From assembly GCF_001042695.1 (NCBI RefSeq), contig NZ_AP012334.1:744001-808000 (forward strand): DNA of 64,000 nucleotides, read 5' to 3'. How positions within the stretch are numbered: the first letter of the stretch is position 1; each line of letters opens with the position of its first letter. The stretch comes from Scardovia inopinata JCM 12537. GTDB taxonomy: Bacteria; Actinomycetota; Actinomycetes; Actinomycetales; Bifidobacteriaceae. The position numbers were made by a program, and so were the translations under genes. The notes beneath the pieces were generated by a model. That model was not told the origin of the DNA and did not search any database. It saw only the letters and a program-made list of their open reading frames with translations. Positions 10,501 to 50,700 of this stretch are shown here, piece after piece.

Positions 10501-10604
10501 AAATGTGTAAAATTATGCATGATTATCAAGTACCTGCTGCAGTGAAAATGTGACTTGGCAAGACGGAATCAGTTTTTCATAAGATAGACACGTCTTCTTC
10601 CGAT

Positions 10605-10633
10605 TTGCTTCCCTTTGTCTTTGTGGATATACT
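10605..10633 (+). promoter_or_regulatory. Candidate promoter of the orphan lipoprotein gene
   Basis: TTGCTT at 10605-10610 and TATACT at 10628-10633 are 17 bp apart. Transcription would begin near 10640, leaving a 5' leader of about 180 nt before the start codon at 10820. Confidence 0.45.
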
Positions 10634-10640
10634 AGGTGTA

Positions 10641-10756
10641 GTCCTTAAGATCGTATGCGATGGTGCATATGAGGGACGGAAAGGATGGCGATAGTGCCAT
10701 GATTAGCATAAGGAAGCATGTGAACATGCCTGCATGGAGGCACCGGCGTCTATCCT
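10641..10756 (+). promoter_or_regulatory. Structured 5' leader of the lipoprotein gene (possible riboregulator)
   Basis: Two folded parts can be drawn. First: GTCC 10641-10644 with GGAC 10674-10677, holding ATCG/CGAT around TATG. Second: AGGAT 10682-10686 with ATCCT 10752-10756, GTGCC 10694-10698 with GGCAC 10739-10743, ATG/CAT next to it, and an inner GCATG-TGAA-CATGC hairpin at 10716-10729. No known riboswitch class is recognised, and the pairings are short. Confidence 0.3.
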
Positions 10757-10819
10757 ACAGATATTCGTGATTCAAAGCTAGTATCTACATATAAGAGATT
10801 CTAAGCGGAGAACCTTGGC

Positions 10820-12100
10820 ATGGATACAAAAATAGTCCATCGGAAGCTAGTGCAGATAATAGCAGTATTATCTGCACTAGCTTTTCTGTTTAGTTGTTGT
10901 AGTGCTTGTGGCCTTGATAGGTTTGATAAGAAGAGTTTTGAGAAGATTAATCTTAAAGAGTATCAGTATGCACTTTTCATTTCCCCTCAGTGGACAGATG
11001 ATGACGGGGGTAAGATTGGTTACTTGCTGCTGATTAAACCAAATGGACAGTATCTAGTCCAGCGGCAGGGAAGTATGGATAATGGGAGTATTTCCTGGAC
11101 TAAAAATAGTCTATTTTATACAGATTCGAAACGGGACTATTGGCTGTCAGATTCCAGGGCTCCGCACCGTGTTCCTTCTGAAAAGTTTTATCTTCAGGAT
11201 GGGTTGGTTACTCTGGCTGATGGAGTGACACGGGTAGGCGTTTATAATGGTGGCTATAGTAACTCACAGCATACGGATTATGATGAACAGATTGTGATAT
11301 CCGATACTCATTGGCAGTCGCATCGTTTTAGGTCTCATTTTCAGTATTCGCTGGTTGCAGCATGTGGGAATGATGTATATGGACTGACAACTGATGATTC
11401 GTTGACATCGAAAGTTTTTGATAAGAGTGTGGATCGTATTGTGCAGAACAAACGATTCTCTTTTAAAAAGGTAATGAAGTATACGGATCCTCTTGGTGAG
11501 TCTGGTCCGGTAACAGGTAAGGGGTCTTGTGCGAATAATCGCATCGTTTTTCTTGGTTCGCATTCGAGGGAAAGTGGGGAGAAAATTCGGCACACAGAAG
11601 TTACTAAAAAACTTCTTGCCCACCAGCAGAAAGACGAGTATGGCAAGAAAGAGATTGAGTCAATTGAAGTGATTAATGTACAGACAGGGGAGTGGAAGAG
11701 TCTTCCTCTCATCAATAAGGATCACACAACTTTTCTTTCTAATCGTTTTGGATTTGATTATTCTGTTCAAACTTATAATTCGCTGAACAAAGGGTATCTC
11801 TATTGGATACATGGGGATGGAAGGATATTGAAGACTGATATGAAGAGTGGTGTTACAACTGTTGTGAGTACAATTTTGCATAATACGAAACATAAGATCG
11901 AGGATATAGCCTTTCACCCTACGGTAATCAAGAATAGAATGGTTGTTCTTGTGGAGGATTGGACTAAGCCTGATCGTGATATCACTATTTATACCATTGA
12001 TTTGAAAACAGGTACAAAAGTTTCGCAGGTAAGCATTAAAGGTTTGGAGAAAAAGATTGCAGACAATATGATACTGCGCGGTTTTGCTGTCAGACCTTAA
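10820..12100 (+). CDS. Predicted lipoprotein of unknown function
   Basis: A 426-residue protein that I do not recognise. It opens with a positive N-region (MDTKIVHRKLV), a hydrophobic core and a lipobox-like LFSC near residue 26, so it is probably anchored outside by a lipid. The rest is hydrophilic with many short beta-like stretches and repeated Trp/Tyr/Gly-Asp turns (GYLLLIKPNGQYLV, GYLYWIHGDGRILKTDMKSG), which could fit a beta-propeller; this is a guess. The gene is visibly more AT-rich than its neighbours, has its own promoter and leader, and sits where the aro cluster meets mltG, so recent acquisition is possible. Its signal-peptide codons form a 16-bp perfect hairpin. Confidence 0.75.
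   Translation: MDTKIVHRKLVQIIAVLSALAFLFSCCSACGLDRFDKKSFEKINLKEYQYALFISPQWTDDDGGKIGYLLLIKPNGQYLVQRQGSMDNGSISWTKNSLFYTDSKRDYWLSDSRAPHRVPSEKFYLQDGLVTLADGVTRVGVYNGGYSNSQHTDYDEQIVISDTHWQSHRFRSHFQYSLVAACGNDVYGLTTDDSLTSKVFDKSVDRIVQNKRFSFKKVMKYTDPLGESGPVTGKGSCANNRIVFLGSHSRESGEKIRHTEVTKKLLAHQQKDEYGKKEIESIEVINVQTGEWKSLPLINKDHTTFLSNRFGFDYSVQTYNSLNKGYLYWIHGDGRILKTDMKSGVTTVVSTILHNTKHKIEDIAFHPTVIKNRMVVLVEDWTKPDRDITIYTIDLKTGTKVSQVSIKGLEKKIADNMILRGFAVRP
10844..10883. repeat. Perfect 16-bp inverted repeat inside signal-peptide codons
   Basis: AAGCTAGTGCAGATAA at 10844-10859 and its exact reverse complement at 10868-10883 flank the 8-base loop TAGCAGTA. The stem is followed by TTCTGTTT. It covers about codons 9-21 of the lipoprotein gene. 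As RNA this is a very stable hairpin 24 nt after the start codon. Confidence 0.9.
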
Positions 12101-50433: not shown

Positions 50434-50655
50434 TGCTCCTGGTGCTTCTGTATCTCTCAGGTTTCTCAGCCAGCCCAGTCCCGAGTCCTGCCCCGAGTTG
50501 TATGAGGGAAGAGGAGACTACTGAGGAGAGAGGACGAAGGCAAGAGCCCTATTCGATGGCAGGATCAGGACTGTTGGGACTGTAAGATACGACTGTAAAA
50601 ACTGTAAAAGGGCAGTGCATAAAAAGATATAAAAAAGGTATAAAAGAAAGTATAA

Positions 50656-50700
50656 AAAATCGGACCAGCAAGGAAACTGTGAGCTGGTCCGATTTTTTGT
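50656..50700. terminator. Bidirectional terminator between the dehydrogenase and rpsT
   Basis: AAAAAATCGGACCAGC pairs exactly with GCTGGTCCGATTTTTT across a 13-base loop; A and T runs serve both strands. The 220 bp before it, after the dehydrogenase gene, hold only short GACTGT and TATAAAA repeats. Confidence 0.92.

Follow-up and report, generated by a model that had tools for sequence, protein, structure and literature searches.

A long stem-loop in the signal-peptide codons of a Scardovia inopinata lipoprotein gene and its in-register counterpart of different sequence in a paralogue

Stem-loops that control translation from early within a coding sequence are described in the literature cited here for Escherichia coli and Streptococcus pyogenes. 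One of them, in E. coli fepA, is reportedly the 'starting block' of Jagodnik et al. (Mol Cell, 2017). According to two reviews, initiation is promoted by this fepA stem-loop, near +20, and by another in bamA (PMC12692685, PMC7769764), and the fepA effect is reported to be distance-dependent (PMC7079067). The latter paper also presents a stem-loop at +23 of S. pyogenes nra, placed outside the footprint of the initiating 30S subunit, silent disruption of which lowers the protein level at 25 C (PMC7079067).

Here we analyze a hairpin in S. inopinata JCM 12537, located in a 64-kb stretch of DNA (hereafter the window) that spans positions 744001-808000 of the single 1,797,862-base contig. The structure is a real early-coding stem-loop, common to a lipoprotein gene of this stretch (the window gene) and one paralogue, and its kind is known elsewhere. 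As in fepA and bamA, it resides among the codons of a gene for an envelope protein, and as in fepA close to +20; it is also stable and positioned outside the 30S footprint. It differs from the E. coli cases in that the gene encodes an actinobacterial lipoprotein, that the stem has 20 pairs, that the effect on translation is a candidate one, and that no small RNA is known here. The nra element was likewise predicted from sequence and is found at the same distance, +23, from the start codon, but its gene encodes a regulator, the stem-loop is shorter overall (29 nt) and its function was tested by silent mutations (PMC7079067). Among the matches listed in our literature searches, none concerned this hairpin or the leader preceding it, nor a stem-loop of this kind in the present bacterial group. 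The coordinates of all features are collected in Table 1.

Table 1. Positions of the hairpin, leader and gene features in the window, and of the paralogue stem in its own locus (L002).
Feature	Position	Strand	Remarks
Probable -35, TTGCTT	10605..10610	+	sequence reading; 17 nt upstream of -10; absent from promoter scan list
Probable -10, TATACT	10628..10633	+	first bases of the near-identical block
Leader block	10628..10755	+	127/128 nt identical to paralogue leader (L002 1278-1405); mismatch at 10724
Leader core	10641..10700	+	outer 5-bp helix, inner helix, linker, hairpin
Leader outer 5-bp helix	10641-10645/10673-10677	+	
Leader inner helix	10652-10658/10665-10671	+	
Leader linker CGGAAAGG	10677-10684	+	first base is last base of outer helix
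Leader hairpin	10685-10700	+	
Shine-Dalgarno GGAG of lipoprotein gene	10807..10810	+	sequence reading
Lipoprotein gene, 426 aa	10820..12100	+	ORF; signal peptide, lipobox-type cysteine C26, then predicted beta-propeller
Hairpin with two outer G-U pairs	10842-10885	+	20 pairs; +23 to +66 of coding sequence; -28.9 kcal/mol
Hairpin 5' arm AAGCTAGTGCAGATAATA	10844-10861	+	codons KLVQII
Hairpin loop GCAG	10862-10865	+	
Hairpin 3' arm	10866-10883	+	exact reverse complement of 5' arm; codons ..LSALAF
Paralogue stem	L002 1498-1543		15 bp, two G-U pairs, 16-nt loop; found with G-U allowed

The first-pass annotation of this DNA had reported a perfect 16-bp stem with an 8-base spacer, its 5' arm 24 nt past the A of the ATG (10820). 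The hairpin is real and the distance correct, while the size was misjudged: 18 perfect base pairs are closed by a 4-nt loop (10844-10883), extending to 20 pairs once G-U is counted, and the first base of the stem falls at +23 with the G-U pairs and at +25 without them. Two further statements, that such a stem is unlikely by chance and that the protein does not demand it, withstood scrutiny. No other perfect Watson-Crick stem (loop of 3-20 nt) in the 64-kb window is as long, the runner-up having 16 bp, and the longest perfect stem in each of 20 first-order Markov random sequences measured only 9-11 bp. When the first codons of the gene were recoded silently, not one sequence folded as stably as the native one (0 of 300 and 0 of 150 recodings). 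Compared with its own recodings over the first 135 nt the gene scores z -8.06. In a set of 196 putative genes, drawn from the window and from 11 further 20-kb samples of the genome (220 kb), this is the most extreme value, the next being -4.28. For the segment 10760-10920 the predicted folding energy is -55 kcal/mol, which corresponds to z -4.99 relative to 200 shuffles. The genome sequence was completed with Sanger reads, with an estimated error rate below 1 in 10,000 (PMC4432351), which makes an assembly artefact improbable.

The annotation had also considered the element a possible trace of an inserted repeat, for which we find no support. Apart from the two arms themselves, the genome has no copy of the arm with fewer than 3 mismatches, only two matches with 3 mismatches each, and the stem of the paralogue is of different sequence. 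Neither the arm nor the leader displays the further genomic copies of a dispersed repeat or mobile element, and an Rfam scan over 10844-10883 peaked at 17.2 bits versus a gathering score of 44. The hairpin, taken together with the in-register stem of the paralogue, is explained neither by chance or codon constraint nor by an inserted repeat.

Nor is the gene an orphan, as it had been termed: the same genome encodes two homologues, a paralogue starting at 78714 (41% protein identity) and a distant third member near 1432071-1432940, and a profile search detects the family in 30 of 189 Bifidobacteriaceae genomes, the own genome included. A strict Watson-Crick search of the homologues returned only a 7-bp palindrome near the start of the paralogue, as if the stem were private to the window gene, an assignment overturned by the search with G-U allowed. 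The paralogue stem covers the aligned codons in the same register as the window stem, in agreement with the BLAST alignment. We examined 21 candidate pairs in this register. The two genes have 16 of them in common: in 6 both partners differ between the genes, in 4 only one does, and 6 are unchanged. The continuous stem of the paralogue includes 14 of these shared pairs, among them 4 of the 6 in which both partners changed, and the other two pairs are isolated in its loop; 4 pairs of the window stem do not form in the paralogue, and one outer pair is present there alone. Third codon positions of the two genes are 35% identical, i.e. near saturation, and an in-register run of at least 14 pairs was obtained in 32 of 100,000 silent recodings of the paralogue and in 108 of 100,000 of the window gene. 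A hairpin at the same codons, spelled with different letters in the sister gene, suggests from sequence comparison that the shape of the mRNA itself matters, and the fact that pairing is kept rather than sequence fits a sequence-independent role.

Changes on both sides of a pair can nevertheless arise by mutation, and the main rival explanation is of this type: DNA template switches from one arm of an imperfect palindrome to the other would have made, and at times repaired, the stem, with paired changes introduced in single events and no need for selection. The window stem is perfect (18 pairs, 4-nt loop) and the paralogue stem contains two G-U pairs and a 16-nt loop, as if one copy had recently been 'corrected'. 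Hairpins can reportedly be both generated and preserved by this process (PMC8794818), and the RNA hairpins presented there resemble ours in their perfect stems and paired multi-base changes; in contrast, the window stem lies within protein-coding sequence, in two near-saturated paralogues. Furthermore, among the top-scoring genes the antisense folding scores are about as extreme as the sense scores, so that a DNA-level cause is possible. On the other hand, in coding sequence this close to saturation a useless stem should decay in both genes unless correction is frequent. The wobble pairs of the paralogue are also G-U in the mRNA sense, a weak argument as the search admitted G-U only, and two other family genes, G002a and G001b, may share a register as well, according to a hand alignment. 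Taken as a whole, we view template switching as unlikely, yet as the chief competitor.

The divergence of the arms also bears on functions that depend on the letters themselves. The long inverted repeat is located approximately 210 nt downstream of the probable promoter, where it could act as a DNA operator for a dimeric repressor, but the arm sequence differs between the paralogues while the pairing stays, and no further close copy is present in the genome; we regard an operator as extremely improbable. A transcription attenuator, as had been envisaged, or intrinsic terminator is in our opinion very improbable. The window stem appears in the output of a terminator scan, with CTTTTCTGTTT on its 3' side, and a U-run is likewise present after the G001b stem, TTCTTTTTCTTC. 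However, only 6 G-C pairs contribute to the window stem, and the U-run is not kept: it is absent 3' of the paralogue and G002a stems, which are followed by TTCTTGGC and CTAAAAATT, respectively. A G+C-rich stem combined with a U-run kept in the homologues, as in intrinsic terminators and attenuators, is not what we find here. Elsewhere in the window, positions 50654-50698 form a perfect 16-bp stem with an A-run and a T-run at its ends, probably a bidirectional terminator.

The reading we tentatively favor, and consider plausible if somewhat short of probable, is that the 40-nt palindrome is a selected mRNA stem-loop at the coding start, acting when translation initiates or during the earliest steps of elongation. 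Starting from +23 or +25, the stem-loop would begin just past the stretch covered by the initiating 30S subunit, and could stop or position the ribosome at the start codon in the manner of the E. coli fepA 'starting block'; such positioning would then set the output of the lipoprotein. We infer that the stem acts as RNA, on translation, and in an activating rather than a slowing manner. The stems of the window gene, the paralogue and two other family genes, G002a and G001b, are all more stable as mRNA than as antisense (by 2.2, 4.1, 3.0 and 5.8 kcal/mol, respectively), in a comparison biased to the mRNA because the stems were chosen with G-U allowed. Counting against this mechanism, just two intact genes carry this very stem, and the stem start spreads over the four clearest cases (+23 in the window gene, +24 in G002a, +31 in the paralogue and +37 in G001b), while distance dependence is reported for fepA (PMC7079067).

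Sequestration of the ribosome-binding site, hinted at by the first fold, was considered and rejected, as openness is hardly altered by silent recoding of the stem. The mean predicted openness from -20 to +15 is 0.45 in the native window gene and 0.45 over 60 silent recodings, and 0.44 native versus 0.46 recoded in the paralogue; for the Shine-Dalgarno sequence of the window gene the values are 0.30 native and 0.36 (sd 0.14) recoded. In neither paralogue do the openness predictions give any sign of direct sequestration of the start region, or of its relief, and since silent recoding barely changes them the stem appears self-contained. By sequence reading, the paralogue is without a recognizable Shine-Dalgarno sequence before its ATG (L002 1440-1468), which makes it plausible that a downstream stem aids initiation there. 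Upstream of the start codon of the window gene, AAAGCTAGT (10774-10782) has the same letters as the outer part of the hairpin's 5' arm and might base-pair with its 3' arm; a counterpart was not seen by eye in the paralogue.

If the stem was kept through near-complete turnover of synonymous sites in a Bifidobacteriaceae species, it would provide evolutionary evidence for control of translation by early-coding stem-loops. The hairpin moreover represents a clean test object, because synonymous changes suffice both to disrupt the stem and to rebuild it.

How far the property extends was assessed in 27 genes, namely those among 52 profile-match rows (some rows being pieces of one gene) for which a start could be assigned; fragments, genes in which no lipobox or start was evident, G069 and the frameshifted gene of G001 were excluded, and the starts of G017, G029a, G029c, G061, G091a and G089 are approximate. 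Only 5 of the 27 reach z <= -2.5, and 22 are without such a structure excess. Excluding the window gene, 4 of 26 family genes compare with 11 of 195 background genes at this cut-off, a non-significant excess (Fisher p 0.083, Mann-Whitney p 0.20), the two sets being scored with slightly different window lengths. We consequently discarded a family-wide rule of signal-codon hairpins on these counts. The G059 gene scores z -4.70, yet its structure is not one continuous stem. For G002a and G001b, a hand alignment on the RWRG/SRRG motif yields 12 continuous pairs at shared codons, 7 of them changed on both sides, and the observed runs are reached by 947 (1.9%) and 317 (0.6%) of 50,000 recodings, respectively; it is suggestive of a shared stem register in these two genes.

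Homologues had been named in the first-pass annotation as the place to check the stem. The closest intact homologue has it, in the same register and with pair changes on both sides, which supports a putative mRNA-level role of the stem. Against a general role, the syntenic copy of the paralogue in a second genome, G001 (L004 1386-2654), is frameshifted and has no stem at the place of the hairpin, and most of the family is without the excess.

The occurrence of the stem within the signal-peptide codons of the window gene, the paralogue, G002a and G001b would also be congruent with a pacing of elongation rather than an effect on initiation, where the first ribosomes are slowed during synthesis of the signal peptide, leaving time for membrane targeting. 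Stems in coding sequences are indeed believed to slow elongation (PMC7769764). Nevertheless, the G002a and G001b stems precede the hydrophobic stretch, and a strong early structure is not a general property of lipoprotein genes here: 8 genes were flagged as lipobox-like, and the four that look like genuine lipoprotein genes in addition to the window gene (L126, two in L129, and L128) have z from -2.41 to 0.73. Hence we judge pacing to be rather improbable.

The stem is preceded by a second conserved element, overlooked in the first-pass annotation, a leader that is nearly the same in front of both paralogues although their coding sequences are near saturation. The -35 hexamer and its spacing are retained in the paralogue with a different spacer sequence, and BLAST extends the similarity to 91.5% over 177 nt (approximately 10598-10773). 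In the genome BLAST there are two long copies of the leader, each upstream of a member of this lipoprotein family, and the other five matches measure 14-22 nt with E >1; across the 189 genomes no further long copy was recovered, only the own genome and one 19-nt match. G001 contains a single exact instance of the core motif, upstream of the syntenic copy (L004, approximately 1290-1355), and G002 contains none. The plan of the G001 leader is identical, with outer helix, inner helix, CGGAAAGG and hairpin, while the letters of the stems differ, including all 7 of 7 inner-helix pairs in a hand alignment. Promoter-like hexamers are also retained by the frameshifted G001 copy (TTGCCA, 17 nt, TATCCT). 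As the copies within the genome are near-identical and the G001 leader has drifted, the leader is either homogenized between copies or very strongly constrained. Its fold scores are modest, z -2.42 and -1.77 in the own genome and -2.36 in G001.

Rfam returned no entry for the leader up to E 10, phage and plasmid collections held no match to it, and scans of a contig collection with the leader pattern and with the protein were likewise negative, although near records may be left out of that collection. With up to 2 mismatches the motif is present in 122 of 189 genomes and is commoner than a reversed control among the matches listed; with up to 3 mismatches, motif and control counts are 9 vs 15 in the own genome, 7 vs 5 in G002 and 34 vs 17 in G001. 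These inexact matches are taken for coding look-alikes. Small peptides encoded by the leader were set aside, as the reading frame around GGACGGAAAGG differs between the own genome and G001. From its sequence, the leader is a candidate new RNA element of oral bifidobacteria, so far uncatalogued.

Leader and hairpin may, in a reading that we find doubtful, constitute a two-part RNA control unit for the lipoprotein gene pair in the Scardovia/Parascardovia group, both parts having been preserved as the codons between them and beyond diverged almost to saturation. Such a unit would consist of a structured leader with stem-loops around the fixed CGGAAAGG linker, succeeded in the signal-peptide codons by a stem-loop that acts independently of its sequence; the leader could then possibly bind a ligand or protein, or act as a small RNA. 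A different connection between the two elements would be processing by an RNase III-type double-strand nuclease, with cleavage of the 18-20 bp stem limiting or maturing the mRNA or freeing the leader as a small RNA. The 20 continuous pairs of the window gene and the almost identical 128-nt leader in both transcripts are compatible with such processing. Stems of 14-15 pairs are short for RNase III substrates, however, and the paralogue and G002a offer only 15 and 14 pairs, respectively; we assign processing a low likelihood.

Regarding the encoded protein, a Pfam/NCBIfam scan detected no family above its cut-off. The AlphaFold2 model (alignment of 25 sequences; mean pLDDT 87.2, pTM 0.84) displays a long N-terminal helix and then mostly strands. 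Foldseek ranks apocarotenoid oxygenases first and AztD, BamB and XusB lower down, at modest TM scores by query of 0.37-0.53. All of these we take to be beta-propellers, and the lipoprotein is thus predicted from its model to adopt a beta-propeller after the signal peptide. The window gene is flanked by genes that by the look of their sequences are presumably mltG-like and prepilin-peptidase-like, and what we assume to be a sucrose-phosphorylase-like gene adjoins both the paralogue and the syntenic G001 copy. Among the ORFs listed around the window gene or the paralogue there is no amidase-like neighbor. For 8 of 26 homologues examined (L035, L068, L051, L013, L053, L060, L038 and L042), the lipoprotein gene is located 3' of a gene with an NCSQ/NCGQ/HCGQ-type motif. 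One of the 8 upstream neighbors was scanned and matched Peptidase_C92 (YaeF/YiiX amidase; 29.1 bits versus a cut-off of 27), and in 6 of the 8 pairs the lipoprotein start codon lies no more than 60 nt from the stop of the YiiX-type-amidase-like gene, a possible functional pair.
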